The position numbers and the translations under genes were made by a program. From assembly GCF_944383115.1 (NCBI RefSeq), contig NZ_CALWOJ010000155.1, positions 41,667 to 105,666 of the forward strand: a stretch of DNA of 64,000 nt. The letters run 5' to 3'. The stretch comes from an uncultured Flavonifractor sp. Its GTDB lineage: Bacteria > Bacillota > Clostridia > Oscillospirales > Oscillospiraceae. Under the pieces are notes generated by a model that ran no database searches, was not told the DNA's origin, and worked only from the letters and a program-made list of their open reading frames with translations. This document shows positions 4,325 to 53,401 of the stretch, piece after piece. Numbering within the stretch: the stretch's first letter is position 1; every line of letters begins with the position of its first letter.

Positions 4325-4495
4325 AACATCAGGATCACTCGTACGGGTTTTACAAACCATGCTGCCGCAGCAGATGGAGAGATATTCACATTCTGCACGA
4401 CAAATTGGGAGGGGGGAACGCCATCGTCAAAATCCAGACCAGGCTGTCGCGAAATTCCCAGAGATAAACCAGAAAACTATCAGGGAGGAAGGGAA

Positions 4496-5914: not shown

Positions 5915-5947
5915 CCACCTGTGTAAAACGAAAAGGAGGATATGAGC

Positions 5948-6343: not shown

Positions 6344-6389
6344 CCGCAACGGCTTCGTTTTTCCCTGAACAAGAATCGGAGGTTTTATT

Positions 6390-6956: not shown

Positions 6957-6971
6957 TACACAAAACGAGCC

Positions 6972-7012
6972 CCATCCGGGCAGGCGACAATATGGTCTGC
7001 CTGCCCGGATGG
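6972..7012 (+). other. Intergenic hairpin between flavoredoxin and peptidase genes
   Basis: A 14-bp perfect inverted repeat, CCATCCGGGCAGGC / GCCTGCCCGGATGG, with a 13-base loop. No T-run follows, so it more likely marks mRNA processing, stability or partial attenuation between two parts of the operon than full termination. Confidence 0.5.
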
Positions 7013-7108
7013 CCAACAAATCAACAGATTTCTGCCACGCCTGCAAGCTGCCGGGTGTTGGAACTGTGTTGATTTGCTTTTGTGGTTTTGAGAAGGAGGG
7101 GAACTGCC

Positions 7109-9024: not shown

Positions 9025-9056
9025 ACAAATCTAGGACTGGAGGAAGCGGTAGAACT

Positions 9057-13167: not shown

Positions 13168-13217
13168 GTGTTCCTGAGGCGTATCCCTCCGGTATCCGGG
13201 CTTTAGAAAGGAAAGAG

Positions 13218-13418
13218 ATGGAGAATGGTATGAAACAAATTACGATCCATAGAGATTGGTGCAAGCAGTGCGGGATCTGTGCTTCGTTTTGCCCCAAGAA
13301 GGTACTTGAACTGGTCAAGGGCTATCCGGAGGCGGTGCGCCCGGAAGACTGTATTGGGTGCATGCTGTGCGAAATGCGTTGCCCTGACTTTGCCATCAGC
13401 GTCAAAACGGAGGATTGA
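13218..13418 (+). CDS. korD: Ferredoxin-type delta subunit of 2-oxoacid:ferredoxin oxidoreductase
   Basis: A 66-residue protein with two [4Fe-4S] motifs: CKQCGICASFCPK and CIGCMLCEMRCPD. It directly precedes the alpha subunit (3-base gap) and is therefore the delta subunit that accepts electrons from the TPP site. An alternative start at the ATG at 13230 also has a GGAG site. Confidence 0.85.
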   Translation: MENGMKQITIHRDWCKQCGICASFCPKKVLELVKGYPEAVRPEDCIGCMLCEMRCPDFAISVKTED

Positions 13419-13421
13419 GTC

Positions 13422-36653: not shown

Positions 36654-37037
36654 TTACTTAATAGTTTTCAGACGCAATAGGATTTTCTTATCTGCCGGGC
36701 AAAAATCATATTGATCAATTTCATCCACAGTAATCCATCGAATATCATTGTGCTCCAGTTTCTGAAGAATACCTGATTGAATCGATGCATTGAAGAGAGT
36801 TAGGTGGACAGTCAGATCTGGATATTCGTGGGTGACATCCATAAATATATCCCCTATATGCAATGTGACAGCTAGTTCCTCCTGACACTCTCGTATGAGG
36901 GCCTGTTCTTTTGCTTCACCAGGTTCTACCTTTCCACCAACAAACTCCCAAAGGAGTCCTCTTGCCTTATGTTCTGGACGCTGGCAAATCATAAAGTTGT
37001 CTTGATCCCAAATCAAGGCTGCAACTACTTCGGTCAT
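36654..37037 (-). CDS. NUDIX hydrolase (MutT-like)
   Basis: 127 residues with a complete Nudix box, GGKVEPGEAKEQALIRECQE then EL (residues about 34-56). The WEFVGGK start and the small size suggest an 8-oxo-dGTP diphosphatase-like enzyme. It lies 32 bases behind the eight-gene defence operon in the same direction and is AT-rich like it, so it may be part of that transcript. Confidence 0.88.
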   Translation of the reverse strand: MTEVVAALIWDQDNFMICQRPEHKARGLLWEFVGGKVEPGEAKEQALIRECQEELAVTLHIGDIFMDVTHEYPDLTVHLTLFNASIQSGILQKLEHNDIRWITVDEIDQYDFCPADKKILLRLKTIK

Positions 37038-37069: not shown

Positions 37070-40000
37070 TCATGCCAAACACAGATTATGTATTACAGGA
37101 TTATCTGCAAGTTGTCCAACTTGCATTTCGTGCAAACGATAGACCACCTCATCTTCAGGCATATCATAATGAACAATAAAACGAATATGCGGATTAGAAA
37201 GGTTTTTTCCTGCATCATGCGTAGTAATAAGTACAGGAATGCCTCCATTAGAAAAAGAGTTTGTGAGGTAATTAATCTTTTCCTTATTTTCAGGATTTGC
37301 GACATCAATATATGCTTCAGCCAAAATCTTTCTTTTTCTGAGAAGTTTGCTTAAGTTTATGCAGGTCGTTTCATCAGTACAGTAGATTAAGCCCTGTCCA
37401 TTTATTTCGCTCAGGTTATCTAGTATCCACTCTGACTTTTCATCAGGAGAAGACAACATATGCTCTATTGTATTTTCAAACTCATGTTTACTTTCGATAT
37501 TAGAGCATAGGTAGTTACTCAAATCCAGATTTTCAAAACCTGTTTTAGCCATTAAGTACATTGTGGCTTGAATGGCTGCACCACAGTTGTTAATCTGTTT
37601 CCATACTTCTTTTGCAAAAGCAGGGTGGTCGATTCCCCAATAAGCAACCTTTCCATCGAAATAATCAACAAATAGAGAAATATTTTCGTGCTGTTTAAAA
37701 AAGTCATAGGATACGAAGATTACATCGTACTTCTCTTTCTTAAAGTCAGCTAACAACTCCTCCATGGTGCTTATTATTCCACCCTTAAGTCCGAGCCTGT
37801 CAGCAAGAACTAGGGAATTTTCTTGAAGGTGCGATTCTGCCGTTAGCAAAGTTTGTTTTCCACTAGTTAAATGTTCTTTCATGGCTAGGAGATAAAGCAT
37901 AACACTCTTCATTGATCCCGATGGAGCATTACAAGCAACAGATTTACCGTGGTACAATGCAAGGACGATGTTCTGCTGTTCTACCGACAAAGTATGTTCT
38001 GGCCCAAACCTCTCTTCAAGAATGGAATTGAACTCAGCAATTAGTATACTATCTTCATTTGATAGTTCTTTATCGGTATAAATATCGTGATTGCTTTTAA
38101 GGGGGCTTTCAGGGGTATTATACAGCACGTCACTCTGAGAAGTTAAGCGCCCTTCGTTATGCTCCACGGTATCTATTGATTCTGCTTTTTGATTCCAATC
38201 GGCGTCCATTGGCGTCTGATCTACTATAGAGGAATTCACTAGCGAGTGATCCTGTCCTATTAAATTTTCTGGTACAGGGATTGGTTCTATAAACTCATCA
38301 CCAATTTCGTCGTCTGTTTCATCAATCTCAAGTTCAGATGAAAAATGATCACGGACAACTGCTAAATGATCTAATGCTCGTGTATATGAAATATACTTTT
38401 CATTAGCAGACATTTGATCAACAATAGCAACAACTGCCTCAAATTCCAAGCCCTTTGCTGTTTCTACAGAAACTACTGAAAGTTTTGTGTCATCAACTGA
38501 ATACCATGACACATCTTGTTTATCCAAAATCGAATGAAGAAATTCCTGTATTGCCTTTAATCCGTGACGGTGAATGATAGCAACTCGATAATCAGAATTT
38601 AATCGTTTTATTTCCAAAACCCACTTTACAGCAGCAATAGCATCCATTTCAACAACCGGGTCACCCGAAATACCGATAGGATATACTTCCGCCTCAAATT
38701 CCTTGTTGCAGAAATCTGTAATTTGAAGAGTATTTCTGTAATTTTCGTTAAGAACATAGACATTCCCTGATGTAATATCCGAAATATCATCCCAGTCTGC
38801 AATTCCCTTGTAACTATATACCGATTGATTGATATCTCCGTAAAGATTAAATATGCATTTTTCACCCAGCACCATGCGCAGCAGATGGTATTCTGCAATA
38901 GAAATATCTTGTGCTTCATCTATGTTTAAAAATGTATCACTGTTCAAAGGACGTGCAAAATACAACGCACAATACAAGAGTTTTAAATAGATTTTATGTC
39001 GATAATTTGTCTTCTGATATCTCTGGTTGTACTGTTTATATTGGTCCAAAAGATCCTTAAACATTACATTTCGAGATATTTCACTCATCTGCAGCTGCTT
39101 TAAAATTTTACTACAATCCCTAATATAGGCCTCATCTTCTTTCGTATATGCGTCCCGCACATATTGCGTATACTCGATTTCAAGTCTGCTTTTAGTTTGT
39201 TCTAGAGTGGTCACCCTTTCGTGTAAACGGTTATATACTAGCCTTTGTTCCTCATAACCGGAAAGTATAGGGCTCAACTCTTTTTTGGCGGATGTGGATA
39301 ATAAGCTCTTTGTATCAGGCAAATCCTCAGAGGCAAAAATATTAGCGCACTCGTTTAGTGCAGAGAGTCGACCTTTTTGATTGTGTAAGCGTTTCTTCTC
39401 GTTTTGGATGGTCTCATCTATGCTAATGAAGCCCTGATCAAAAGCGTCCAGAGCACTCTGCAAGGCATCCTTTTCATTGTTTGCCATAGTAAGCTTAGCG
39501 TCAATAAATGATGATATTTTTTCTGTAAAAGTTGCCTTTTTCTCAGTTAGCTGCTTCCGCAAAGTGTTTCTTTTTCCGAAATTATAGATTGGAGTTTTTT
39601 GATATAATTGGACTACATCAGAAATTTCTTGGATAAGGGTAGCATACTCTCGACGGATTATTTGACTTACTGTATTATCGATAAGCACAAACTGGTCATA
39701 ATTTGTATAAGCATCGGTATTATGCGAAAACATGTTAATGATAGCCTTTACCTGCGTCAAATCGGCATCAGCCCGGCTACGTCGGTCTATCAGCTCATCG
39801 CGCTGAGTATTAGAAACTGTAATCTTACTCTCAATTTCTTGGATAGTTTCTCCAATCGTAATGCTTTCTATCTCAAGCCGTGTGATTACCTGACTTTTGG
39901 CATTAACAAGTTTATCTGCACAATTATCAAGTTCTTGCTGAACAACTTCGATCTCTTTAGAAGTAGCTTCCATCCGTTGGGCAACGGATTCTTTCTTCTT

Positions 40001-41143
40001 CTCTGCGGTGGAAATAGTTATTGAGATTTGCTGTAAAGATTGTTCCATTTGGACGACCGTAGCAGCCGTATGCAATGCTGTATTCGGGTATATAAGAGTA
40101 AATCTAGCAAAATACTCCTGCAACTTTGGTTGATTAAGAGCGGTTAATATTTGCTCCCAGTATTCATGATAGTGAGCAATAGAATTGTCCAAATACTGAA
40201 GAGAATATATGTCTTCCAATAATTTAGGACTTAGTGATTTCTCACTACATACATCTGCAGTCACATTTGCTTTGCTGTAATATTTTTTGATGAGAAAAAC
40301 ATAGTATTCTTCAACAGAAAAACGGTCAATCGCAGTTAGACCAAGTTCAACACTTAGATCGTTTATATGAGCATCAAAGTATTTGTTTGGAGTGATTATC
40401 TTAATGCCAGACAAGGACATTGCTCTGTTGTTAAATTTTAAATATGAAAGTCGATGAAGCAGGATCATCGTTTTCCCAGATCCAGCACACCCTTGTACAA
40501 CGAAGCTTTCTGTCCGAGGTTTTCTGATGATTTCATTTTGATTTCCCTGGATTGTTCGAATAATGTCTGTCAGTCGATTATGTCTACGCTTGTCCTTAAG
40601 GACCGTAAGCAGAAAAGGATCAATGACATCTCCTTCAAGAGAAACTGTTTCACCATCGTACTCCGTTTGATAACTCAAAAGCTTTGCATTTCTCACATCT
40701 AATGCTCGACGAAGCGCTAAAAGATATTTATGATTTTTAACTTTAAATTCTTTTTGATTTGAAGCATAGTAGCAAGAGCCGATAGGAGTTCTCCAATCGA
40801 CTACGAGTACATCCGCGCTGTCAGTTATAGCTTCTTTTCCAATGTAGTATGTTTGGGTCTCAATTTCAGCACTGTCATCGTCACAGTCGAGATCCAGCCG
40901 TCCGAAATAAGGGGATGGCTCCATTGAGTGCCACCATTCGGCACTCTTTCGATTAGTTTCACGATCGTGAATCAGTTGTTGTTTGACTTCTATGTCAGAA
41001 TAATCATAAACAACAAAATCAAGGATTTCTTTTGCTAATCGAGAAGTTTCATCTTCATAATGAGATGCTTTTCTCGATATTCTTTTTTCAGTTTCAGCTA
41101 AATGCCGCTCTTCTTCCTGAAAAATCTTATCCATGAAAGGCAC
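37070..41143 (-). CDS. HelD/UvrD-like helicase fused to a degenerate RecQ-like domain
   Basis: 1357 residues. The N-terminal 1000 residues form a superfamily-1 helicase of the HelD/UvrD type: Walker A GCAGSGKT (218-225), a long coiled-coil insertion (about 370-700), Walker B NIDEAQDIS (near 740), NYRN (near 795), TAKGLEF and YTRALDH (near 920). Residues about 1040-1357 resemble a RecQ-type superfamily-2 core, but the P-loop reads SGSMKS instead of GxGKS, the DEAH box reads GIDHPAF, and the arginine-finger box (QxxGRAGR) is replaced by HEMQVGQL. That half is probably a binding or scaffolding domain. It is the last of the eight co-directional defence genes, six bases after the PLD nuclease. Confidence 0.8.
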   Translation of the reverse strand: MPFMDKIFQEEERHLAETEKRISRKASHYEDETSRLAKEILDFVVYDYSDIEVKQQLIHDRETNRKSAEWWHSMEPSPYFGRLDLDCDDDSAEIETQTYYIGKEAITDSADVLVVDWRTPIGSCYYASNQKEFKVKNHKYLLALRRALDVRNAKLLSYQTEYDGETVSLEGDVIDPFLLTVLKDKRRHNRLTDIIRTIQGNQNEIIRKPRTESFVVQGCAGSGKTMILLHRLSYLKFNNRAMSLSGIKIITPNKYFDAHINDLSVELGLTAIDRFSVEEYYVFLIKKYYSKANVTADVCSEKSLSPKLLEDIYSLQYLDNSIAHYHEYWEQILTALNQPKLQEYFARFTLIYPNTALHTAATVVQMEQSLQQISITISTAEKKKESVAQRMEATSKEIEVVQQELDNCADKLVNAKSQVITRLEIESITIGETIQEIESKITVSNTQRDELIDRRSRADADLTQVKAIINMFSHNTDAYTNYDQFVLIDNTVSQIIRREYATLIQEISDVVQLYQKTPIYNFGKRNTLRKQLTEKKATFTEKISSFIDAKLTMANNEKDALQSALDAFDQGFISIDETIQNEKKRLHNQKGRLSALNECANIFASEDLPDTKSLLSTSAKKELSPILSGYEEQRLVYNRLHERVTTLEQTKSRLEIEYTQYVRDAYTKEDEAYIRDCSKILKQLQMSEISRNVMFKDLLDQYKQYNQRYQKTNYRHKIYLKLLYCALYFARPLNSDTFLNIDEAQDISIAEYHLLRMVLGEKCIFNLYGDINQSVYSYKGIADWDDISDITSGNVYVLNENYRNTLQITDFCNKEFEAEVYPIGISGDPVVEMDAIAAVKWVLEIKRLNSDYRVAIIHRHGLKAIQEFLHSILDKQDVSWYSVDDTKLSVVSVETAKGLEFEAVVAIVDQMSANEKYISYTRALDHLAVVRDHFSSELEIDETDDEIGDEFIEPIPVPENLIGQDHSLVNSSIVDQTPMDADWNQKAESIDTVEHNEGRLTSQSDVLYNTPESPLKSNHDIYTDKELSNEDSILIAEFNSILEERFGPEHTLSVEQQNIVLALYHGKSVACNAPSGSMKSVMLYLLAMKEHLTSGKQTLLTAESHLQENSLVLADRLGLKGGIISTMEELLADFKKEKYDVIFVSYDFFKQHENISLFVDYFDGKVAYWGIDHPAFAKEVWKQINNCGAAIQATMYLMAKTGFENLDLSNYLCSNIESKHEFENTIEHMLSSPDEKSEWILDNLSEINGQGLIYCTDETTCINLSKLLRKRKILAEAYIDVANPENKEKINYLTNSFSNGGIPVLITTHDAGKNLSNPHIRFIVHYDMPEDEVVYRLHEMQVGQLADNPVIHNLCLA

Positions 41144-41149
41144 CTCAAA

Positions 41150-42058
41150 TCATCTGTTGTTAATCCTTACACGCTGAGAGTATCCAGGCCTATCAATAAC
41201 TAGATCATCTATTTTCAAATCGCTAATCCATGTCAGGAGATTGCTCACAAGTTGCTTTACATCCTTACGATAGGGCTTGGGCTCATTAAGCAAGGTGTTA
41301 TGTAATGCGGCGGTAAGCGCTCCAAAATATATTTCCTGTGACTTTTCGCCTTTAAGGAGATTAAGTAACCAAAGGTAACACTTTGAAGATTTCATGGCCT
41401 TTGCAAGTTGTAATTCTGCAGCACTAGAAGAAATGTTGAGAAAAAGCAAATCTTCATCTGATGCATTTCGGGGATGCACGCATGGAGGGAAATCCTCTGC
41501 AAACAGAAGAGAATATTCTGGCTGAAACATATCTGTGATTTTCTTGGGCCACTGCAACAAGCCCGTAGCAACTGTGTCCTGAACGTCAACAGCATGATGC
41601 ATAATTTCGTATATTGAATCGTTCATTTCAACAGAGCCTAGAAGGAGTAGTTTTAATGCTTGTATATCTTTTTCTGCTAATTCACAAACTGCGGCCATCT
41701 CGTAATTGCCAAAACCACCTATGTTCATACCACTACCGGTAGCGTTTGCACTTCCGATAATACAGCGTAGACGGTCAAAAACATATGTCTTTGCATGTAG
41801 GTCTAATCGAAAGTACAATTTCCAGCCATTATCCCTACAATACGGGTAAATATCTAAATCAGATGCTCCAGATAAAATATCTTCGGGGCGGAAACGAACT
41901 ATTAATTTTTTCTCAATCCCAATATTAGATATACAAGTATCAAAATATTTTACGAGTGGCAGTTTACAGTAAGCAGAAATAAGCAGGAAAGATTCTGTAC
42001 TCTTAGAGAGTTCATCACTAATACGGTCTAGGATTTTTTGTGATACCAAAATCGACAT
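41150..42058 (-). CDS. PLD-like nuclease
   Basis: 302 residues with one HKD motif: HAKTYVFD (His88, Lys90) followed by GSANATGSG (Gly102, Asn105). A single copy implies an active site formed by a dimer, as in bacterial PLD nucleases of restriction systems. The C-terminal 150 residues are not recognised. Spacing to its neighbours is 6 and 28 bases, so it belongs to the same operon. Likely the DNA-cutting part of the four-gene module. Confidence 0.8.
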   Translation of the reverse strand: MSILVSQKILDRISDELSKSTESFLLISAYCKLPLVKYFDTCISNIGIEKKLIVRFRPEDILSGASDLDIYPYCRDNGWKLYFRLDLHAKTYVFDRLRCIIGSANATGSGMNIGGFGNYEMAAVCELAEKDIQALKLLLLGSVEMNDSIYEIMHHAVDVQDTVATGLLQWPKKITDMFQPEYSLLFAEDFPPCVHPRNASDEDLLFLNISSSAAELQLAKAMKSSKCYLWLLNLLKGEKSQEIYFGALTAALHNTLLNEPKPYRKDVKQLVSNLLTWISDLKIDDLVIDRPGYSQRVRINNR

Positions 42059-42086
42059 ACAGAATCCTCCTTGCCCTAAAATGAAA

Positions 42087-43883
42087 TCAATTAGACTTAA
42101 TCTGTTTGAGGTAGGATTTCAGACGATGATCCCAGTGCTGTAAAAGTTCATCGTTCTGGTCGCTGTTATGAATATTTGTAAGGTCGATGGCTTTAGCGAG
42201 TGCAGCAATAAATAATTCAAATGCTAGTCTACTTTCTTCAGGCATCTTCACTATATATTCGTTATAGAAGATGTGTGCGGTATTAATAGTAACCTTGACA
42301 TGGCCTAGGCTAAAATCGGTATCAATAAAGGAGCCATTACGCCCAAGATTGGTATATTCAAAGGTTAATTCTCTATTTAGCAAAGCTCTAATTTGCTCAT
42401 ATGTCGGTGACTCAAACCCATGATCTTTCAGGAACTCCTCAGCTTCTTTTTCTAGGACTTCGGGATCCGTTGTTTCGGTTACCTTACTAGTTGCACTACC
42501 AGTATCATCCTCGTTGTCCTCAACTGCGCTTACAATGCTATTGGCAGGAGAGTCTCCGATCTCATCATTGTTGGCAATACGGCTCCCTTTTCGAAGCTCT
42601 TTATTGTCTTCAACCATTTCTTTGATTGTGTATTTAATAATCTGAGCAAGCCTATTCCATAAAGGAAGAATTAGTTCATTATTAGGTCCTACTTCTGGTT
42701 CTGCATCATCACGTAGTTCCACCTGCTGCTTGTTATTGGAAACGCCAAAGACCTCATCAAGTACAGGGTCAAAAAGGATTTCACAGCCCCACCACCTGTG
42801 GTAGGGGTTATTTGTTTTGTCATAGAAATCAAAGGCACCAAAGTCAATTTCACGTCCAGCTCGAACAACTGAAATGCCTTCAAGTTTTTTCGCATATTTG
42901 CCAATGGGCTTATTCCCTGGATCACCAGTCGAAATAGCAGTTTGGTCATAAAATTCCGCCCGAACCTTCGAAAAGCGTATCAGAACATCAGATGTTTTTT
43001 CTTCTCCAGTCTTTTTATCCACATAAGGAATTTGAATGATTACCTCTCCATCATTATCTCCATATGGTTCAAAAATAGGTTCTGTGCAATTGATATTTGC
43101 TCTTTCAGAAATATTGGCCGGATCGTTCAAATTTCCCAAAACATAATTTGGTTTCATCAAAAACAGTGGATCATTAGGAAGAACATCAATCGCAGCGTCT
43201 TCGTGACCAATTGTTATCAGACGGATATTGTGTGTTCCGTTCATAATTAAGTGGCGGAACTTTCTTCCAAGGAAAAATTCCAACTTTTCGTTCAATGTCG
43301 CCATAGTCTTAGGCTTAACATTATCACAATTTTTCCAATAGACTAGTGTCCCATGGGCAGTAAAGTCGTATGTTTTTCCTGAGGTATGATAGTTAAGAAA
43401 GGGGCGATACTGCTTAGGAATTTCCGTTAACTCTGGATCATTGATTTCCTCCTGTTCACCAGTTTTGACTTTTTCAATGTCAAGCCAGACTTGGCGTACT
43501 GGATCGTCGACCTCAATAGGGCCATCATCTTGCGTCCAAGAATATACTTCTACATTCGGGGTCACATGGAGAGAGGCTTGAGGGAGCCCAACACCAAAAC
43601 GGCCCATCCCGCGGCGATCAGATTTTGTAGTAAATCCAATTCCGAGACAACTTGCTAATTTGCTGATGTCCATACCGGATCCGTTATCAAGGATGCCAAA
43701 TTCATAAACCGCTTTGCGGTGGGATACAGGATCAACTCGTTCAGTCATGATAACAAATATATCATGCGCTCCTGCCTCGATAGAGTTGTCAATCAATTCA
43801 GCAATGGCACTGTCAATGCTCTTATACCCACTACTACGCAAAGCATCACCCATCTGCTTGATTTGAACGATACTTTGTCCCAT
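42087..43883 (-). CDS. MORC/Hsp90-like GHKL ATPase
   Basis: 598 residues. The GHKL nucleotide site is complete: Glu29, Asp32 and Asn33 in AIAELIDNSIEAGA, DNGSG (66-70) and GRFGVG (94-99). A transducer-like middle part follows, then an acidic linker (about 450-485) and a helical C-terminal domain. Bacterial MORC-type ATPases are known from restriction-related operons together with SF2 helicases and PLD nucleases, where they are thought to clamp DNA. The start lies 22 bases behind the helicase gene. Confidence 0.82.
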   Translation of the reverse strand: MGQSIVQIKQMGDALRSSGYKSIDSAIAELIDNSIEAGAHDIFVIMTERVDPVSHRKAVYEFGILDNGSGMDISKLASCLGIGFTTKSDRRGMGRFGVGLPQASLHVTPNVEVYSWTQDDGPIEVDDPVRQVWLDIEKVKTGEQEEINDPELTEIPKQYRPFLNYHTSGKTYDFTAHGTLVYWKNCDNVKPKTMATLNEKLEFFLGRKFRHLIMNGTHNIRLITIGHEDAAIDVLPNDPLFLMKPNYVLGNLNDPANISERANINCTEPIFEPYGDNDGEVIIQIPYVDKKTGEEKTSDVLIRFSKVRAEFYDQTAISTGDPGNKPIGKYAKKLEGISVVRAGREIDFGAFDFYDKTNNPYHRWWGCEILFDPVLDEVFGVSNNKQQVELRDDAEPEVGPNNELILPLWNRLAQIIKYTIKEMVEDNKELRKGSRIANNDEIGDSPANSIVSAVEDNEDDTGSATSKVTETTDPEVLEKEAEEFLKDHGFESPTYEQIRALLNRELTFEYTNLGRNGSFIDTDFSLGHVKVTINTAHIFYNEYIVKMPEESRLAFELFIAALAKAIDLTNIHNSDQNDELLQHWDHRLKSYLKQIKSN

Positions 43884-43905
43884 AACTGCTTACCTCTCTT
43901 TCTAG

Positions 43906-45630
43906 TTAGCTCCAATAGGAGTTAAAATGGCTGAATGCCATATCAGCATCGTACCGACCGAGATTATCTTTAATATCAACTAGTAAACATTCAGCATTGC
44001 CACCCATCATGGGTCCACGTAGGCCTCGTCCTAACATTTGGCTGTAAAGGACGATAGATTGTGTGGGTCTTGTAATAAAAACACACCGAATATTCGTTGA
44101 GTCGAAACCTGTAGTCAAGACCTCATAATTAATGAGAATATTCACAGGGTTTTGGCGATCTTTAAAAGAGGAAATTGCATCCGCCCGCTCTACCGGATTC
44201 ATTTCGCCAAGCACCAGCGCATTTGGAATATCTTCAAGTGATAACATAAATGAAATCAACTTGGCATGAGCTACTGAACATGCAAAAACAATTGTGGGAA
44301 CTTGCTCAGTTGATAGTTCACGCAACTTATCAAGGATTGCTTTATTTCGACTTCGATTTTTCCCGATATTTTCTAGTGCCGTTTTTGTAAAATCCATATA
44401 ACCATTGTCCAGCATCTTTGCTTTAATCTTCTGGAGTTCAGTAGTCGTAAATTGTTCAGAATAAGTAAGTTGCTCTTTTTTTATTTTAGCCAAAATGTTA
44501 TTTTTCTGGAAGTAGCGGATGATATTACTCTCTGTGGTGTGATTAAGATATGCATTTTTTGACATATTAACCTGATTTACAACACTAACATCAATGCCTA
44601 TGAGGCGGTTCTCAAACATATTGGATAACAACTTGTTTTCATCGCCTGTAAGTGTTGTTCGTCCCGGAGTAGCTGTCAGGCCAACTAGAGAACGATCTTC
44701 ATATCCTGGGGGAGAATACATAAAGGATTCGACTAATGAACGCGTTTCTTGGGCTGCTGCTTTGTGGGCTTCATCAAAGATAATAAGTCTCGTATTTTTA
44801 ACGATTTGCTCAAATAAGTCTGCATTAGTAGTACGAAGAGCTTGCAATTTCTGAATTCCACAGAACATTATGCCATTAAAACCGTCTTGCGGGATTGAAA
44901 TATTACTTTGCCCCCAGAGCTTATATGTATTTATTTGACCATCCCCGAGGTGTTCCCACACGGCGGTAAAAGTTTCGTATGCCTGCTGAAGTAGCTCTGT
45001 TGTATGTGCAAGCCAAACGATTGTGCCCTGTTTTTTTAATGTAAAAGTGTAGTAATGGACTAACGTATGCATAGAAGTTTTGGTTTTGCCTGTACCTGTT
45101 GGCATATGTACAAGCATGCGCTTCAGAGGAAACGGCTTGTTTAATTCATTTAATACGCGCTGCTTAATAAAAAATTGATAATCAAGTAACTCATAAAAAC
45201 GCTTGCCAGCTTGGTGGGAAACCATTACTTTATCATCTTTAATCGGTGGATTGAAGATGGAGCAATCAATTCCAAGGGTCTCCATTAATTTTAAATTTGC
45301 CTCAGAAGGCCCCCACGAGAGCGCAGCAATAGCATTGGCTTTATCACTTATCGTGGAGATATCTTTCTTTTTTGCAGCGGGCAACTTATCAAAAATAGCT
45401 TCGATATCTTTGGCCTCCATATGCATAAGCACATCTCGCCGAAATTGGCTTTTTTTCAATAATTCAACTCCGTTTAGTTGAAGTATCATTTCCGCAAGAC
45501 GCTTTTTTGTTAAGAGCCCATTATTTTCCCACTCAGAAAGAAGTTGCTCAATGAGGTCATCTCCAAGATAATGGCGTAAAGTATCTTGAGAAAAGAGTTT
45601 TAGGCACTCTATTAGCTTAGGGTAATTCAT
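43906..45630 (-). CDS. DEAD/DEAH-box SF2 helicase
   Basis: 574 residues with all usual motifs: MPTGTGKTKTS (Walker A, near 178), IIFDEAHKAAAQ (near 283), GLTATPGRT, and QMLGRGLR with the arginine finger. The class is that of restriction-type translocases (UvrB/ResIII-like). It starts 13 bases after sspA and is followed by the GHKL ATPase. A translocase for the effector module is the natural role. Confidence 0.85.
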   Translation of the reverse strand: MNYPKLIECLKLFSQDTLRHYLGDDLIEQLLSEWENNGLLTKKRLAEMILQLNGVELLKKSQFRRDVLMHMEAKDIEAIFDKLPAAKKKDISTISDKANAIAALSWGPSEANLKLMETLGIDCSIFNPPIKDDKVMVSHQAGKRFYELLDYQFFIKQRVLNELNKPFPLKRMLVHMPTGTGKTKTSMHTLVHYYTFTLKKQGTIVWLAHTTELLQQAYETFTAVWEHLGDGQINTYKLWGQSNISIPQDGFNGIMFCGIQKLQALRTTNADLFEQIVKNTRLIIFDEAHKAAAQETRSLVESFMYSPPGYEDRSLVGLTATPGRTTLTGDENKLLSNMFENRLIGIDVSVVNQVNMSKNAYLNHTTESNIIRYFQKNNILAKIKKEQLTYSEQFTTTELQKIKAKMLDNGYMDFTKTALENIGKNRSRNKAILDKLRELSTEQVPTIVFACSVAHAKLISFMLSLEDIPNALVLGEMNPVERADAISSFKDRQNPVNILINYEVLTTGFDSTNIRCVFITRPTQSIVLYSQMLGRGLRGPMMGGNAECLLVDIKDNLGRYDADMAFSHFNSYWS

Positions 45631-45643: not shown

Positions 45644-46786
45644 TCACGAGTTTTCCTCAATGAAGCCAAGCGCTTTCTCTAATTCGTAAAAGTCTTCTTC
45701 AGATGTAAAATAGCCAACACTGAATCGTACTGTGCCCGCTGGAAATGTTCCTAATGTTTTATGCGCAACTGGTGCACAATGCAATCCAGTTCTAACTGCA
45801 ATCTCATATCGATCCAAAACATCGCCAATATTATCGCTGCTGTAATCGTCAAATAAGCAAGATACGACACCAATACAATTACTCCGTTCTTGGGGCCCAA
45901 CAATTGTTATATTCGAATGCGCACGTAGTGTCGAAAGCAATCGTTTGTGGTTACCATCTTCTATCCTACGGATATCCTCGGCATTCTCAAGAAACCATGT
46001 AAGTGCTGTGTGCAATCCTGAAATAGCATGAATATTCTGGCTTCCCATTTCGTATCGAGAGGGAGCCTCATGAGGCATATCCTGCAGCGCAGATTCTACA
46101 CCTGTCCCGCCAAACAGAATGGGGGTGGGGTTTGATTCTGGTTTTTTCACAAGCCCCCCAATTCCGATAGGGCCGTATAGTGTTTTATGTCCAGCAAAAA
46201 CGGCGTAGTCTATATTATTTGAGCCGATGTTTATTGGAACAAGGCCAGCCGTTTGAGCAATGTCTAGAACCGTAATGCAATCAAACTCTTTTGCCAAACT
46301 TGTAAGCTCCTCCACCGGTGCAATTAAACCGCATACATTACTTGCATGGCTAATGACTAGTACACCAGGTGCATTTTTCTTAAACTCAGCACGAACAGCA
46401 TCGATATCATATCCGCCCTGTATACCGAAAGGAATAACATGAACGATAATATTCTTTGACTTTTCAAGAGCATATAATGTTCTTGTTACGGCATTGTGCT
46501 CGAAGGGGGAAATATAGATGTGCATTCCAGGAGCAATGATTCCCTGAAGTACCATATTCATAGCAAGCGTTGCAGAGGGAGCAAAAATAACTTCTTTGTT
46601 TTCGCACTGCAGCACAGTTTGAATCATCTTCCGCGTTTCAGAGATAATTCGACTTGCGGTCGCGGCCAGTTTATACTGGCCACGACCGGCATTTCCGCCA
46701 TTTTCTCTATAAAATATATCCATATAATCATATACGGCTTTAGGTTTAGGGTATGTTGTTGCTGCATTGTCGAAATATGCTCCCAT
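45644..46786 (-). CDS. sspA: Cysteine desulfurase, SspA-type
   Basis: 380 residues, class V aminotransferase fold. PLP lysine Lys201 in AGHKTLYGP, Asp175 in VLDIAQTAG, substrate-loop cysteine Cys337 in RTGLHCAP. It mobilises sulfur from cysteine for phosphorothioation. In detail it looks like the general cysteine-desulfurase family of Clostridia (YFDNAATTYPKPK, GNAGRGQYKLA), so it may have been recruited from that stock. Position (12 bases after sspC) supports the name; the domain alone would not. Confidence 0.8.
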   Translation of the reverse strand: MGAYFDNAATTYPKPKAVYDYMDIFYRENGGNAGRGQYKLAATASRIISETRKMIQTVLQCENKEVIFAPSATLAMNMVLQGIIAPGMHIYISPFEHNAVTRTLYALEKSKNIIVHVIPFGIQGGYDIDAVRAEFKKNAPGVLVISHASNVCGLIAPVEELTSLAKEFDCITVLDIAQTAGLVPINIGSNNIDYAVFAGHKTLYGPIGIGGLVKKPESNPTPILFGGTGVESALQDMPHEAPSRYEMGSQNIHAISGLHTALTWFLENAEDIRRIEDGNHKRLLSTLRAHSNITIVGPQERSNCIGVVSCLFDDYSSDNIGDVLDRYEIAVRTGLHCAPVAHKTLGTFPAGTVRFSVGYFTSEEDFYELEKALGFIEENS

Positions 46787-46798: not shown

Positions 46799-49700
46799 CT
46801 AGCAGAGTTTCTCCAATATCTCCATTAGCACCTGGCGTTTCTCCTGCGGGGAAATAGATTGTCCCATTTCCCTAATTGCGCTGTCAATTCTTCGATATAA
46901 GATTTCTGAACGCTTGCTGCGCTCCACTCGATCAAATACCCGCTGAATGGCTGTACCATCTCCGTTTACAAAGACAACTGAATAGGCATTTTCTTTCTCA
47001 AGTATAACAGGATCAATATCCGCTTCCGAATGAACGCTTTCTTCGTCAATTGTTGTTTTGTACTCTATCATGCGCTCTCGGAACACTTGAATAGCACTGT
47101 CTGTCCAATCGTCAATACGCAAACCAGTAAGAACCCTTGCAAGTCCTTCAATCAATAGATGTTCGTCATTTGTTGATTTTTCAAACACTTTAAAGATACA
47201 TTCTGCGCCATTAGCATACACTTTGTTTCGAACAGCAGTAGTTAGACTTTCGTACCAGTCCATTACAATGGAGGACAGGGACGCACTACCCTGTTGACCA
47301 CAGAAAATCTCTTTTACATCTTCAACCAAAGCATCTTCCAAGTTAGGTTTAACTTGATCAAAAAACAATTTTGTCGCTGTGATTTTCTCAACAAGTTCGC
47401 TGGATGCTTCATTATACCCAAAGCACTTGGGAATCCTTGTAAACAAAAGATCTAATGCACCAATAGAGGCTTGCTTAAGCAGTGCTAAGAACTTTCTCAT
47501 TTCATTATTAATTTCTGAGTACCTATCACTTTTAGCATTGCCGTTGTAAACTTGTTTCAGTTCTTTCACATATTTAGGCAAAGAGAGATACCATCTCCCC
47601 ATAGCAATTGTCAAATAAGAATAACCATTTTTGCCTCGATCTGCTTCAAAGATAAAGTCTTCAAAAATAGATGTCAGTGCCTCGACATATGCTTCTTTTC
47701 CGTCGCTCCACTCCTCAAGTCTCGCTGTGTATCGCTCAGGATTTTCATTTATCTCATTTAGAAGACTAGGGGTAATTCCTACTTCATTAAACTCGTCACG
47801 AATAATAATGTGTTTTTGATATTTTCGTAAAACAGCAGCGATATAAATGGGAATCAGGCCTCTTCTCATTCCTATTCCATTAGGCGTTCCCGTTAGATCC
47901 TGATACAGTATTTCAAATGACCGATCTCCCGACACTTTAGACTCTTTTACAAAATTTTCGATAATAAAAAGTACTCGCTCAAGATCTTTGTGCTCTTCTG
48001 GAAGATCATTCAACGCAATATATGCGGTTCCATTCTCTTGGCGGAGAACACCTGTTGTAATAAGCGCACTGCGCATAAAGGATACATCCTGGCCGGATCC
48101 AGTAAGTCCTAAATTAATCTGAAGTGGAGTAGTCAACAATCCATTCAACAATTTGGTGCGGCTGTTCATGGCGACAGTTGTCAAATGGTTTTTATTCAAG
48201 ACTTCGTTATTGATTACAGGTGTCTTAGAATATACCTGATCACAAATATCAGAGAGCAGATGGCTTAGATGTGCTTTGCGATACAACGCTTTTTCTTGTC
48301 CGTTGTAAATAAACTTAGCCGCATGTAGCTCCGGGTGGGTATACTGTGCAATAAACCGGTGTACCACTTCGAATAGATCCTGGTAGATGACATCGTATTC
48401 GTCAAAAAGAACATCATCACCTTGGCTAGCTTCACGTAAAATCTGGACTGCATCCAGATTTCTAAGGTGATCCAAAATATCATGAATATGTTCAGGAATG
48501 ACAAAAACAGCTCGCTTAACCCCAACAGTATTTGCTTTTAATGCGTTTTCCAATTCAGCAATATGCTCTTCATCTTGAGGTAAAACACCAAATATAACGC
48601 CATCAGAATGATGCTGGTGAACAAGTTCTTTTAAGTTTTGAGTTAGGAGAATATCTTCTCCGTCAATGAACACGAATTGGAAGAAACGTGTCATCTCTTT
48701 TTGATCATTGTATCGAATCGGATAAGCATACGGTTCAAGATTTGCTGCATTCAGAAGGTTAGCTGCAGTCATGCTGCTACGACGTTTCTGAACTAAATCT
48801 GCAATAGCCTTATATACATCAACACCTGAACTTTCCTTCAATTTCAGATATGCATTACTCCTTTTGAGATACACAACGCACTGCTTCTGAACTAAATCCA
48901 TGATGGTTGCATTGATCTCGTCAACGCTTATGCTGTCATCAGCATATGTGCTCAGAATAGTATCAACCGTAGGTGCAAGTCGTTCAAATTGACCTAAACA
49001 ATAAATCAGAGAAATTGTTTTGATGATCTTTGCGTGAAGTGTGTCCGGTGCAAACTTTGCCAAAATGCTACTAGTCAGACGATATAACTGATGAATTTCG
49101 CTAGTATATACTTCCTTGCGCATTTGGGGAGCAAAGTAGTCATAAAGTACATCAGGAGTTACCATTGGAAATTCGCCAGATAGTCCCTTGATAGCCCCAG
49201 AAAGTGTCGCAGACTCATGTCCAGAAATAAATGTGAAAAGGGTGCGTTCATTCTGCGCTACCTTCTCAGAAATTCGAGGAAGCATGAAGGTAGTAATCGG
49301 GTGGAGCGGATAACACCCTACAACAGCAGCATTTAAACCATTATCGTCACAATCTTCAAAGAGTGTCGTTCCGCTAAAGCGTTGTCTGATGTCATCAAAG
49401 CGAGTTTTGTGTTGCGCATAGAAGGTCGCCCATTGAGCTTCATCTTTTAAGATAGCTTGAGAAATAATTTCATAGATTTGGGCAAAGTCACTGTGCATAT
49501 GGATATGGCTAAATCTTTCGGATACGCCTTTCCAACCATCCACTTTTTGTTTTGGAAGCACGTCAATATAGTTCTCAATTTCCTTGTGAGAAATCAGAAG
49601 CAGGTGAAGTTGTTTACTTCCGCTGCGACTACATTTTTCTGCAAAATCTTGCAGCATTTTTATGTCACTGATAGACGCTTTTGTAATGCTAGATTCAAGA

Positions 49701-50461
49701 TATTTACTAAACTCATCGTATACGACAATAATACCTGTATATCCAACATCAGGGAGTTTTTCAATGACTTTTTCGTAAAGTTCAATCACATCAAACCCAG
49801 CGAAAGGATTAAATTCGCTGCCAGCTGTCAAAGAAGGATAGATTTTTTCAAAAGTGGAGTATGCCTCCACATCAAAATTAGAAAGATGACCTAGAAACTC
49901 ATCTAGGGACATATTGATAGAATTCTTAAACTTTGCAAGTGTTTCTGGATATTCCTTTTCCCAGCGCCGAATCATATTTATAGCAGCCTGGAAATGCGTA
50001 TCCGGCATAAGCGTTAACAAATTATTTTGCTTTAGGGTATTATAAAGGGCCCCCATAAAAGACTGAACAAGGCTAATATTACTACCGTTGATTATGACAG
50101 GTAGTAACTTTTTATCAGATGCAAGATAGCCCTGAGCATATTCGTATAGATCTTCGTTGACCTCTTTTACCTTTGAAAGTAGTGTTGCACTGTCTTGTTC
50201 AACTTTTCTGCAGAGGAAGGAAAGAATAGAGAGGATAATATGGGATTTCCCTTTGCCGTATGCACCAATTAAAATTTTAGCTCTATTTGTAGCTGCGTTG
50301 TCTGTGCTCAGGAGAAAATCTTCAAAAAGATTTACTGCAGCAGACGTTGGTATTAGATGTTTTATTTTATCCGAGTTGTTCAAATCATAGGCGATATTCA
50401 CCGATGTCTGAAAACCCGGAGCGGTCGAGATCATATCTAGAATCATGGGATATTTCTCCAT
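46799..50461 (-). CDS. sspC: SspC-like large P-loop ATPase
   Basis: 1220 residues. Walker A GAYGKGKSH (66-74) and Walker B IIVVYDEFSKYL (about 245-256) sit in an N-terminal AAA-like domain; the rest is long, helical and without other motifs I recognise. It resembles BrxC/PglY-type ATPases, and in this gene order (D-B-C-A) it is the SspC component, the ATPase partner of the nickase and sulfur-transfer proteins. Nine bases separate it from sspB. Confidence 0.75.
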   Translation of the reverse strand: MEKYPMILDMISTAPGFQTSVNIAYDLNNSDKIKHLIPTSAAVNLFEDFLLSTDNAATNRAKILIGAYGKGKSHIILSILSFLCRKVEQDSATLLSKVKEVNEDLYEYAQGYLASDKKLLPVIINGSNISLVQSFMGALYNTLKQNNLLTLMPDTHFQAAINMIRRWEKEYPETLAKFKNSINMSLDEFLGHLSNFDVEAYSTFEKIYPSLTAGSEFNPFAGFDVIELYEKVIEKLPDVGYTGIIVVYDEFSKYLESSITKASISDIKMLQDFAEKCSRSGSKQLHLLLISHKEIENYIDVLPKQKVDGWKGVSERFSHIHMHSDFAQIYEIISQAILKDEAQWATFYAQHKTRFDDIRQRFSGTTLFEDCDDNGLNAAVVGCYPLHPITTFMLPRISEKVAQNERTLFTFISGHESATLSGAIKGLSGEFPMVTPDVLYDYFAPQMRKEVYTSEIHQLYRLTSSILAKFAPDTLHAKIIKTISLIYCLGQFERLAPTVDTILSTYADDSISVDEINATIMDLVQKQCVVYLKRSNAYLKLKESSGVDVYKAIADLVQKRRSSMTAANLLNAANLEPYAYPIRYNDQKEMTRFFQFVFIDGEDILLTQNLKELVHQHHSDGVIFGVLPQDEEHIAELENALKANTVGVKRAVFVIPEHIHDILDHLRNLDAVQILREASQGDDVLFDEYDVIYQDLFEVVHRFIAQYTHPELHAAKFIYNGQEKALYRKAHLSHLLSDICDQVYSKTPVINNEVLNKNHLTTVAMNSRTKLLNGLLTTPLQINLGLTGSGQDVSFMRSALITTGVLRQENGTAYIALNDLPEEHKDLERVLFIIENFVKESKVSGDRSFEILYQDLTGTPNGIGMRRGLIPIYIAAVLRKYQKHIIIRDEFNEVGITPSLLNEINENPERYTARLEEWSDGKEAYVEALTSIFEDFIFEADRGKNGYSYLTIAMGRWYLSLPKYVKELKQVYNGNAKSDRYSEINNEMRKFLALLKQASIGALDLLFTRIPKCFGYNEASSELVEKITATKLFFDQVKPNLEDALVEDVKEIFCGQQGSASLSSIVMDWYESLTTAVRNKVYANGAECIFKVFEKSTNDEHLLIEGLARVLTGLRIDDWTDSAIQVFRERMIEYKTTIDEESVHSEADIDPVILEKENAYSVVFVNGDGTAIQRVFDRVERSKRSEILYRRIDSAIREMGQSISPQEKRQVLMEILEKLC

Positions 50462-50470: not shown

Positions 50471-51346
50471 TTAGGAAAGTTTGCTGTAGTACTGTCGGAC
50501 ACAATCTAAGAATGACATATCTGTCGTGATGTGCAGCAGATCCAATCCGGCTGTACGTACTACTTCTATAAACCCAGCACGTTCAGCAGCGTTTAAAACT
50601 GTGAGCAAAGTAATGGTATCTAGATTAAATATTTTCCCAAGATTTCCTTCTTTGTTTTGAATCTCGGAGAGTGGAATTTCTCGCCGCCCGTCAGCATTAT
50701 CAATGATAGCAGCTACCGCCACTAGAGGATCGATCGTATGTGCAGCAGGGATAGATTTCTTGTATGTCTTTTCCTTCTTGTTGTGGTAATCAATCAGTCC
50801 AAGTTCGCTTAAAGGGCAATCCATATTACTTTCAGGCTCGTCTTTAGAAGGTGCAGTTTTGTACCGTGGCATATAGGTATTAATAATACAGTTAAAATCA
50901 TCATCCAAAGGTCTGATGGGAGGTTCACTGTTGCCGTTCATTTTTGCATAATTTGCAAGCGCAGTCGTGAAATCCTCCTTGCTAAATTCAGAGAGCTGAA
51001 AGTGGTTGAAAAAGAAGTACCAAGAAGTTGCTATATCTTGTTGTCTTGCAAGCTTATAGTGTAACAACCACAGGGTTCCCATCTCCTCGATATATGGGTC
51101 GTTTTCATACAAAATTCTCCCAAATTTTGTTAGATACTGAGCACTTTTGCCTTTGGCACTATCAGAAAGTCCTACTGCAAGCATCCAGTATCGCAAAGAC
51201 TTTACCATGTTTGAGCCAATGCCGAGCACATCCATAGGATTGTATTCTTTGCTAACAAATACATAGGGATCTCGGAAAACATGTTTCATGCCTTTGCTAA
51301 GCCACCCTTTTCGTATTGAAAATGTTTCGTGTGCTCTAAATTTCAT
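50471..51346 (-). CDS. sspB: SspB-like DUF4007 protein (nickase)
   Basis: 291 residues. The N-terminus FRAHETFSIRKGWLSKGM, then LGIGSNMVKSLRYWMLAVGL, is the DUF4007 signature (usually F.gHETFp.R..WL.Kg and LGVGKNMV). In the known Ssp systems the DUF4007 protein SspB nicks DNA to allow single-strand sulfur insertion. It lies 17 bases after sspD and 9 before sspC. Confidence 0.8.
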   Translation of the reverse strand: MKFRAHETFSIRKGWLSKGMKHVFRDPYVFVSKEYNPMDVLGIGSNMVKSLRYWMLAVGLSDSAKGKSAQYLTKFGRILYENDPYIEEMGTLWLLHYKLARQQDIATSWYFFFNHFQLSEFSKEDFTTALANYAKMNGNSEPPIRPLDDDFNCIINTYMPRYKTAPSKDEPESNMDCPLSELGLIDYHNKKEKTYKKSIPAAHTIDPLVAVAAIIDNADGRREIPLSEIQNKEGNLGKIFNLDTITLLTVLNAAERAGFIEVVRTAGLDLLHITTDMSFLDCVRQYYSKLS

Positions 51347-51363: not shown

Positions 51364-53091
51364 TTATTTGGTCTTAAGATATTTGTCCATCATACAACCA
51401 CCATCAAGATACTTGGCAGATACGCATTTTTTACAGCGAATGCATTTCTCTGGGTCAATGATATATTCATCTCCCACTATCATAATTGCACCTTGCTTAC
51501 AAATGGACTCGCATTTCAAACATTTTCGACATGCATTAAATTTGCGAACTTGGTACCCAATCACTCTTTGCAAATCTTCATGCTTTGCAACATTCATGGT
51601 TTTAATCTTTACAGCATAATCATATCCGTGCTGAGAAAATGGTTGGATCGAGATAATTGGTACTTTTGTGCGAACATCAATAATAATGGTTTCCTGAATC
51701 AGTTTACGGCCAAGTTCTGGAGCAGCAATTCCAAAGGGCGACATCATTCCGATAAAGGAGTCATCAAAAGGCTTTGTTAAACTATATATCTTGGCATGAT
51801 CTTCTGCAGTGCAGTTTGTAAATTTAATTTTCACATCGTTAGCCGCCGCCAAACCATTTCCACCTTGGCGAGCCTTCCATTTTCCGGTATCAACATATAC
51901 CTCTGGATCAGGTTTTCCGATTCGTTTTGCAAAGCTAATTAAAAATTCTCGCCACTTCTTGGACTGTTCCGGCATATAGATTCTAGAGAGAAATTGAGCC
52001 CTGGAGTTATTATTTGGACAACACCAGCAACCCACACGATCATATCCCAAACGATATGCGTCATTAAAATCAACATGTTCACCAAGAATGTAGAGCCAAA
52101 CATCCAAGTCACTCCAAAAAAAGATGGGTGCAGCAACAGTCTGTTTTTGAATTTTAACCGACTCATTATTATGAGTAACTCGACTATATTTACTTCGACT
52201 TACTGATTCGCACTTCCTAATTCCATAAAAAGTGAGAATCTGCTCACCGGGAAAGGCTTCATTTAGAAGTCTTGTAATAGGACCAGTTTTAAACATCGAG
52301 CAACACCAGCGCATCATACGAGCAGGAGGCCCAATATCTTCACAAACAGCATAAAAGTCCTGATCGTAATTTTTTGAGATCCAGACTGGTGTATGTGGAT
52401 TATTATCACTGAATCTTTCAGAATAGGCATATGTCATGGGAAATTCCAGGGTTGTATCGCCAAAGATATGAGTTATTCTTGGATTGCCTAATGCCTTTAC
52501 AACAACATCTGCTGTTGCAGTAGAGTCTTTACCACCAGAAAAAGATATAACGAGTCTTTCTTCGTCAAAATGTGTTGCGATTCGCTTAATGAAATCTGTT
52601 GCTTCCTTCTTAATGTAATATAACCGATAAGAATTTGCTCGAATAAATCTATCAATATATTTATTGAATACTTCGTAAGAATTTAAAGGTTGATACTGTT
52701 TTAAAAGAGCCCCTAATTTGTCAGTATCAGCATTTTGAAAATGCTTTGTACTCACTGAAACTGATTTTCCATTAATGTAGTAACGACTATTCGAGGCCCA
52801 AACAGATGCATTCATATAAGTGTGCGGTTTCTTGTTGAGCAAAAGTTCTAAAAGTAATCTTTCTTCTGGAAATACTGGTCGCATATCACTAGAAAGATAG
52901 TCTATCGGTCTACCACAAAGAGGGCAAAACATCTCCATTTGCCCTTCACCTTGTCTTCTAGGCTCTTTCATAACCGGTATTTGGCACGTTTCACACCAAT
53001 AGACTCCACTTTCTGGAACCGGAACTGTTTCTGAATGGCACTCAGGACAGTTATTATATTCAGTTTCTATATTACACTTCGTACACCACAT
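51364..53091 (-). CDS. sspD: SspD-like ATP pyrophosphatase (PAPS-reductase family)
   Basis: 575 residues in three parts. Residues 1-60 carry four CxxC pairs (C3/C6, C15/C18, C33/C36, C56/C59), a double zinc ribbon. The central part is an adenylating PAPS-reductase-like domain with the P-loop SGGKDS (185-190) and a cysteine-rich WCCPNNN stretch. The C-terminus (about 515-565) has two ferredoxin-like clusters, CRKCLKCESICK and CIRCKKCVSAKYLDGGC. DndC/SspD proteins activate DNA and insert sulfur, using an iron-sulfur cluster. It is the first enzyme gene of the operon. Confidence 0.82.
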   Translation of the reverse strand: MWCTKCNIETEYNNCPECHSETVPVPESGVYWCETCQIPVMKEPRRQGEGQMEMFCPLCGRPIDYLSSDMRPVFPEERLLLELLLNKKPHTYMNASVWASNSRYYINGKSVSVSTKHFQNADTDKLGALLKQYQPLNSYEVFNKYIDRFIRANSYRLYYIKKEATDFIKRIATHFDEERLVISFSGGKDSTATADVVVKALGNPRITHIFGDTTLEFPMTYAYSERFSDNNPHTPVWISKNYDQDFYAVCEDIGPPARMMRWCCSMFKTGPITRLLNEAFPGEQILTFYGIRKCESVSRSKYSRVTHNNESVKIQKQTVAAPIFFWSDLDVWLYILGEHVDFNDAYRLGYDRVGCWCCPNNNSRAQFLSRIYMPEQSKKWREFLISFAKRIGKPDPEVYVDTGKWKARQGGNGLAAANDVKIKFTNCTAEDHAKIYSLTKPFDDSFIGMMSPFGIAAPELGRKLIQETIIIDVRTKVPIISIQPFSQHGYDYAVKIKTMNVAKHEDLQRVIGYQVRKFNACRKCLKCESICKQGAIMIVGDEYIIDPEKCIRCKKCVSAKYLDGGCMMDKYLKTK

Positions 53092-53182: not shown

Positions 53183-53401
53183 TCAATTTGTATGTGTACC
53201 ATCCGGTATAAACTCCATAATATCTCCAATATCTACTGCAAGCGTAGAACAAATTTTTTGCAATACTGTGAGGGTTACTTCCTCATCCCGGCGAAGACGC
53301 GTCATTGTGTTAGGGGCAATGCCGGCAGCTCTTCGCAAATCAGCTTTACTCATCTTTTTATCAACAAGGAGCTTCCAGAGTTTGTTGTAAGAGATGGCCA
53401 T
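53183..53401 (-). CDS. HTH regulator at the head of the ssp operon
   Basis: 72 residues, Cro/C1 HTH (LWKLLVDKKMSKADLRRAAG, then APNTMTRLRRDEEVTLT). It lies 91 bases upstream of sspD in the same direction, behind a good promoter, so it is probably the first gene of the operon and controls it. It is a paralogue of the HTH protein at 35770. Confidence 0.85.
   Translation of the reverse strand: MAISYNKLWKLLVDKKMSKADLRRAAGIAPNTMTRLRRDEEVTLTVLQKICSTLAVDIGDIMEFIPDGTHTN

Follow-up and report, generated by a model that had tools for sequence, protein, structure and literature searches.

What are the genes that follow sspA in an uncultured Flavonifractor sp., and do they serve the phosphorothioation genes in front of them? 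The question is raised by a stretch of 64,000 nucleotides (nt) (GCF_944383115.1, NZ_CALWOJ010000155.1, positions 41,667–105,666, forward strand), here called the window, in which four genes sit directly behind sspD-B-C-A in the same direction. They encode a superfamily 2 (SF2) helicase, a MORC-like GHKL ATPase, a single-HKD protein of the PLD family, and a HelD-like helicase with a RecQ-like C-terminal part (HelD-RecQ). An earlier note on this DNA had described them as a four-gene module of the phosphorothioation operon, a second effector arm that would sense a lack of phosphorothioates beside SspE, and had supposed that an operon with SspABCD, SspE, and this module may be undescribed. Its account of the four open reading frames (ORFs) is confirmed: all are intact, with the order, strand, and gaps that it gave (13, 22, 28, and 6 nt going down from sspA), and with a base composition (GC 0.378–0.411) in common with that of sspD-B-C-A (0.381–0.429).

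The interpretation given in the note is supported in part. The best reading is that three of these genes, SF2, GHKL, and PLD (the triad), constitute one more restriction cassette that works with Ssp-type phosphorothioation, apparently one without a name so far, and it follows from the linkage to ssp genes together with the exchange of the cassette next to sspA. As judged from their sequences, the three proteins probably form one ATP-driven restriction complex, predicted to cut DNA that lacks the phosphorothioate mark, the putative product of sspD-B-C-A.

Linkage to ssp genes and exchange beside sspA

The neighbourhood of the GHKL gene was surveyed with an alignment of 17 homologues (from 120 listed of 2945 matches) in a collection holding one genome per species, which gave 65 GHKL loci on genome contigs, labelled by L-numbers. 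Neighbours were named by means of profiles derived from the genes of the window and of the fetched loci, and the counts were scripted; locus ORFs are mechanical longest ORFs, and some gaps are therefore negative. An SF2 gene adjoins GHKL in 47 of the 65 loci, and it is in these that the claimed linkage to phosphorothioation genes holds: 46 carry an ssp gene, 45 at least one of sspB, sspC, and sspD, and 43 at least two of them. The sole SF2-GHKL locus without an ssp gene (L059, from a Methanoregula bin) lies on a stretch that stops 3.6 kb past GHKL on one side. PLD is present in 44 of the 47, being missing from L030, L033, and L046, the last of which is at a contig end. The constant unit is thus SF2-GHKL-PLD, whereas the idea of a four-gene unit, with HelD-RecQ as a constant member, had to be dropped, since among the fetched triad loci HelD-RecQ was labelled only in the window and in L003, where it is a fragment of 240 residues at a contig end.

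The order of the genes is fixed. SF2 lies within 99 nt after sspA on the same strand, overlaps included, in 29 of 31 close-relative loci (L002–L029, L031, L035, and L042; L030 and the contig-end L046 were omitted), the two exceptions being L002, with a GmrSD gene in between, and L010, which lacks sspA. Members of the cassette with ssp genes as neighbours come from Clostridia, Treponema, Pelagibacter, Planctomycetes, and an archaeal bin. Both sspB and sspC are found in the stretches of four of the distant members, namely those of Candidatus Pelagibacter ubique HIMB058 (L034), Roseivirga (L039), a Planctomycetes bin (L061), and the archaeal bin (L049). At the level of whole genomes, DUF4007, the SspB family, occurs in 29 of 398 genomes of the phylum and GHKL in 3, all of them within the 29 (Fisher P 0.00035; 0.0048 without the genome of the window itself).

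The third slot of the cassette varies when PLD is absent: L067 and L068 carry a protein of 359 residues, the first 96 of which match an endonuclease effector, and L030 carries a GmrSD gene. In eight loci, a gene of about 200 codons lies between GHKL and SF2 (L050, at 11641–12243, L041, L049, L055, L056, L060, L061, and L065); that of L050 encodes a PC4 domain (Pfam), and the seven others are grouped with it by their size. L010 is a broken locus (3686–9989), with sspD split by an ORF of 506 residues, sspC and SF2 shortened, and GHKL and PLD open.

Within close relatives, the modification genes and the cassette vary independently of each other. When protein distances were ranked across 27 close-relative loci (those with missing or broken genes being dropped), the Spearman correlation was 0.90 between GHKL and SF2 and 0.83 between SspC and SspB, and only 0.17–0.27 across the two units, with PLD intermediate (0.38–0.47). 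A case in point is that of L006 and L020, which share 92.7% DNA identity over 7.7 kb, stopping 63 nt before the sspA stop codon. Their SspD, SspB, SspC, and SspA are 92–98% identical (SspC 97%), but their SF2, GHKL, and PLD proteins only 45%, 42%, and 71%, which shows an exchange of SF2-GHKL next to sspA. The independent variation of SF2-GHKL and SspBC also suggests that information on self probably passes by way of the DNA mark and does not depend on a matched contact with SspBCD. With near-identical modification modules and different cassettes, L006 and L020 form a naturally occurring pair in which the reading of the mark could be tested.

Cassette proteins and a possible mechanism

The families assigned to the four proteins in the earlier note were borne out by Pfam and by their motifs. 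Their coordinates, and those of the neighbouring genes, are collected in the table.

Table. Genes of the cassette, the modification module, and their neighbours in the window
Feature	Position	Strand	Details
SF2 helicase/translocase (ResIII, RadD-like)	43906..45630	-	574 aa; cassette gene 1
MORC-like GHKL ATPase	42087..43883	-	598 aa; cassette gene 2
Single-HKD PLD nuclease (predicted)	41150..42058	-	302 aa; cassette gene 3
HelD-like SF1 motor ending in a degenerate RecQ-like part	37070..41143	-	1357 aa, GTG start; apparent clade-specific accessory
sspA cysteine desulfurase	45644..46786	-	PADLOC SspA 155 bits; motif RTGLHC
sspC ATPase	46799..50461	-	PADLOC SspC 413 bits, BrxC 177 bits; Walker A GAYGKGKS
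sspB, DUF4007	50471..51346	-	Pfam DUF4007 280 bits; PADLOC SspB 207 bits
sspD/BrxP-like PAPS reductase with ferredoxin motifs	51364..53091	-	PADLOC BrxP 258 bits, SspD 48 bits; motif SGGKDS
Cro/C1-type helix-turn-helix regulator, upstream of sspD	53183..53401	-	Pfam HTH_26 81 bits
GmrSD-type DUF262/HNH protein, encoded divergently; candidate for an additional, optional effector	53823..56081	+	Pfam GmrSD_N 84 bits
MutT-like NUDIX protein, membership uncertain	36654..37037	-	32 nt behind HelD; PADLOC PDC-S07 145 bits; NUDIX

SspB, SspC, and SspD occur in the window together with a cysteine desulfurase, the composition of an Ssp-type modification module, and with catalytic motifs present in SspA, SspC, and SspD, these genes are predicted to write phosphorothioate on the host DNA. 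They share with the cassette a tract of low GC content at about 36.5–56 kb, flanked by segments that reach about 0.47 to 0.62 when read in 2-kb steps. Scans for promoters and terminators found the window no richer in them than shuffled sequence, so that a promoter after sspA is neither supported nor excluded.

The SF2 protein matches ResIII (79 bits), DEAD, and Helicase_C in Pfam, and reaches 106 bits with the NCBIfam RadD model, whose cut-off is 720. Its motifs are intact (PTGTGKT, DEAH, TATPGR, and QMLGRGLR), and the residues of the core helicase motifs are invariant in an alignment of 39 rows. The GHKL protein matches HATPase_c_3 (63 bits) and holds the motifs ELIDNS, DNGSGM, and GMGRFGVG; residues E29, D32, N33, D66, G68, G70, and K385, the last in the second domain, are invariant in 58 rows. 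In its structural model, with a predicted local distance difference test (pLDDT) score of 86, the first matches in the PDB are SMCHD1 and DNA-bound MORC2, at template modelling (TM) scores of 0.35–0.40, with Hsp90 and MutL further down. The GHKL motifs, the conserved basic residue K385 in a putative S5-like domain, and the MORC-like fold, the last at a modest TM score, fit a MORC-type GHKL ATPase. The PLD protein matches PLDc_2 and has one HxKx4D motif and a GSAN motif, in which H88, K90, and N105 are invariant and D95 is kept in at least 90% of 43 rows. Its model (pLDDT 89) matches PLD folds that include the nucleases NucT, Nuc, and Zucchini, so that the marks of a single-HKD nuclease (HxKx4D, GSxN, and a Nuc-like fold) are present, although PLD-like folds without nuclease activity match too. 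Because the top fold matches are such non-nucleases, the predicted nuclease activity rests more on the conserved HKD and GSxN motifs than on the fold search.

In the mechanism proposed here, sspD-B-C-A would mark the host DNA with phosphorothioate, the SF2 protein would translocate on DNA, a GHKL dimer would close on it as a clamp and gate the reaction, and a PLD dimer would cut. HelD-RecQ, probably an aid confined to one clade, would remove RNA polymerase or other obstacles from the DNA; this is the weak part of the scheme, and the clearing of RNA polymerase is guessed from the protein family. The GmrSD gene would provide an additional, optional effector. That HelD-RecQ is clade-specific and GmrSD optional leaves the triad as the main effector.

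Several points weigh against a restriction complex directed at unmarked DNA. Its support comes from computation, and none of the cassette subunits is assigned to the reading of the mark. The linkage to ssp genes could partly be a co-residence in defence islands, and the cross-unit correlation rises to 0.67–0.78 over all 37 loci compared, which is taken as reflecting a split between two large families. The first fold match of PLD is TrmBL2, an archaeal DNA-binding protein that is not a nuclease, and the second a FAM83 protein, while the fold matches are modest in general (TM scores of about 0.3–0.4 by query length). To these are added the narrow occurrence of HelD-RecQ and the rarity of the cassette: at family level, GHKL was found in 1 of 150 genomes (E 1e-30), at class level in 1 of 391 (E 1e-60), and at phylum level in 3 of 398 (E 1e-20), the genome of the window being one of the positives each time. 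Besides the window, 28 DUF4007 loci were examined in the phylum, and only two of them carry the triad (L115 and L117; the PLD of L115 was seen).

A further objection has to do with the sense in which the mark is used. By analogy with SspE and Pbe, which need the mark in order to act, activation of the cassette by the mark is just as conceivable: it would be silent and harmless in the absence of modification and would attack unmarked incoming DNA in its presence. SspE and PbeABCD are reported to behave in this manner, and the window also holds a GmrSD protein with a DGQQR motif. Activation by the mark is nevertheless considered rather unlikely, since Pbe is reported as often solitary (320 of 553 pbeAC pairs have no dndCD within 10 kb), in contrast to the near-constant linkage of SF2-GHKL to ssp genes, a linkage more in keeping with a cassette that would do harm in the absence of the mark. 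This argument is indirect, and it is weakened by the published count having asked for dnd genes and by Pbe-like genes also adjoining ssp genes.

A bolder version of the restriction cassette can be put forward as a possibility, albeit a doubtful one. SF2 and the MORC-type clamp may be an exchangeable engine able to read the sulfur mark of the backbone itself, in which the clamp would close on the incoming DNA and compact or scan it unless phosphorothioates are met, and would then hand the DNA to the nuclease of the third slot (PLD, GmrSD-HNH, or another). If true, this would be a new class of phosphorothioate effectors, with members among both bacteria and archaea, and a case of a prokaryotic MORC protein acting on an epigenetic mark of the backbone.

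The available text of a 2025 review distinguishes three restriction branches of phosphorothioate systems, namely DndFGH with SspFGH, SspE, and PbeABCD (PMC12707154). The cassette would add another branch, with a MORC-like ATPase that is not mentioned for the known three in that text. Many phosphorothioating bacteria are said, in the accessible portion of another source, to be without restriction genes (PMC11931770). Some of those thought to be restriction-free may carry cassettes of this kind. Elsewhere, DndI is reportedly added as a further restriction branch.

Less likely readings: an independent system or a named partner

The four genes might also be an independent GHKL-helicase restriction system that shares a defence island with the ssp genes and makes no use of phosphorothioates. 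Prokaryotic MORC restriction operons combine GHKL, an SF2 helicase, and a nuclease (HKD in few), frequently beside methylases (PMC2292703, as far as its available text goes), and among the 18 GHKL loci that lack SF2, 10 are devoid of phosphorothioation genes, the other 8, two of them BREX type 4-like, having some. The MORC operons share the three activities with the cassette, and differ from it by the frequent methylases; the term phosphorothio does not occur in the available text. The fixed gene order, the short gap between sspA and SF2, the linkage kept in distant lineages, and a breakpoint of the exchange that lies inside sspA, close to its end, all speak against independence, which appears improbable.

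Least probable is that the cassette has diverged from, but still belongs to, one of the named partners (SspFGH, PbeABCD, DISARM, MZA, or BREX type 4), an identity suggested by weak PADLOC matches and a BrxP-like SspD, but contradicted by scores far below those of true members, as found when the proteins were checked by profile. The comparisons are as follows.

SspFGH, a multi-gene restriction partner beside sspBCD that is able to coexist with other effectors (PMC8092258, in its available text), resembles the cassette in its position beside ssp genes; SspF, SspG, and SspH, however, belong to other families. No SspF, SspG, or SspH model was listed by PADLOC for 10 window proteins, and no relative of the three proteins of L068 was found among the window ORFs. 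This locus, on an Agrobacterium plasmid (5705–21494), holds an SF2-GHKL pair together with SspF, SspG, and SspH (787, 726, and 2427 bits), sspD, and sspC, and such a joint presence in one locus indicates that the cassette is not SspFGH.

PbeABCD, described with dnd genes in the available texts, likewise unites PLD/HKD and SF2 helicase chemistry beside phosphorothioation genes (PMC6459918, PMC10853773). Its PbeA is a fusion of PLD and SF2 paired with the ABC-type PbeC, while the cassette has separate SF2 and PLD proteins and GHKL as a third ATPase. Pbe was rejected, as SF2 scores 47 bits with PADLOC PbeA, against 808 and 828 for two true PbeA proteins; the helicase cores align, the triad PLD profile gives no alignment to a PbeA, and no PbeC was listed for the window proteins scanned with PADLOC. 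Pbe-like genes are also found beside sspDBCA, where they are a class separate from the cassette.

The cut-offs of the DISARM and MZA models are far from reached. PLD scores 31 bits with PADLOC DrmC and 20.5 with NCBIfam DrmC (cut-off 133), with no DrmA or DrmB listed among the 10 proteins scanned, and GHKL scores 33 bits with PADLOC MzaB and 35 with NCBIfam MzaB (cut-off 850).

BREX type 4 (PMC12839542, in its accessible part) shares with the window SspC/BrxC, DUF4007, a cysteine desulfurase, and an SspD that is closer to BrxP than to the SspD model (table). Unlike in BREX type 4, queries with type-4 PglZ and BrxL found no relative in the window (two PglZ queries found each other), and the triad stands behind sspA instead. 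This identity was rejected; BrxL is also absent from the genome of the window, which is 89% complete (controls found in 2 of 14), and the genome-wide search for PglZ had no positive control. In L051 and L062, a GHKL relative adjoins genes resembling a BREX type 4 set, with BrxL in L062 and DUF7862–7864 proteins in both.

That the cassette may be undescribed, as the earlier note had supposed of the whole operon, agrees with the open-access literature, in which no published description of a GHKL-SF2-PLD cassette with ssp genes was found (subscription papers and preprints lay outside the search).

Accessory genes and other partners of the modification module

HelD-RecQ matches AAA_19 and UvrD, plus a sub-threshold Helicase_C, in Pfam, and scores 117 bits with the PDB chain 6wvk and 125 with NCBIfam HelD_BACSU (cut-off 419). 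It resembles the RNA polymerase recycling factor HelD in its N-terminal part and its SF1 motor, where AGSGKT and DEAQ are intact. Unlike HelD, it adds the RecQ-like C-terminal part, in which the Walker lysine is kept (APSGSMKS) and YDFF stands in place of the expected DExH box, and it shows an apparent linkage to the cassette in one clade. When the best 67 of 120 HelD matches (three of them fragments) were compared with 112 of 120 GHKL matches, 19 exact coincidences in the size of the longest contig were found, with at least one more (21474) in a dropped match, against 0.17 on average and at most 2 in a control with shifted sizes. HelD-RecQ thus appears to be a clade-specific accessory of the cassette, linked to it in the clade of the window. 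Across the 398 phylum genomes, it is full length only in the genome of the window, two others giving partial matches in frames of 760–780 residues.

The divergent GmrSD gene, which the earlier note had called SspE, encodes a GmrSD_N protein with DGQQR at 91 and HHVIP at 648, motifs that recall the SspE/GmrSD family (PMC13251355, in its available text). It lies outside the cassette, and SspE is only a candidate identity: no SspE-named PADLOC model was listed for it (whether the library holds such a model was not seen), NCBIfam gave no match, and a PDB search matched only a DUF262 chain. At least 6 of the 47 SF2-GHKL loci have a GmrSD relative, five by label and one (L011) by Pfam, a minimum because only a few neighbours were checked in Pfam; the relative in L002, between sspA and SF2, scores 1010 bits.

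The Ssp modification module has interchangeable partners, since DUF4007, in loci labelled with the same kind of profiles, is found beside PbeA-like, SspF-like, or GmrSD genes as well as the triad, which is a minority partner class. Among the 28 DUF4007 loci, some of them on short contigs, 10 carry a PbeA-like gene of 713–742 codons, called by SF2 profile score and size; the two run against PADLOC (L113 and L118) gave the 808 and 828 bits cited above. SspF-like matches occur in 6, weak (23–43 bits) in 5 of these, and a GmrSD relative in 3.

Searches in viral sequences and for an empty site returned little. Among viral contigs, 91 stretches fitted a pattern, with no relative of the cassette among them, and a phage search gave one weak partial match. 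Repeats in the locus are short and mostly imperfect. In the comparison for an empty site, one of two genomes of the same genus gave only short matches of 66–71%, not collinear in orientation, and the other none.

Other arrangements were seen beside Ssp modification genes. The PbeA-like loci are L104, L106, L109, L112–L114, L118, L122, L127, and L128, and in most of them the next gene encodes about 600–680 residues, which is PbeC by PADLOC in L113. A PLD gene, an unmatched protein of about 1020–1040 residues, and a UvrD helicase (Pfam, L122) stand beside sspDBCA in L122 (884–7260) and L126 (1379–7712). Behind the triad of L006, a DndB-type protein is encoded at 12967–14238, with gene pairs of like size in L015, L023, and L026, and a DndB match lies inside the operon of L115. 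Finally, L104 (2578–4344) holds a second kind of GHKL protein, of 588 residues and with 58 bits to MzaB, directly behind sspA, and sspA-GHKL pairs are also found in L047 and L057.

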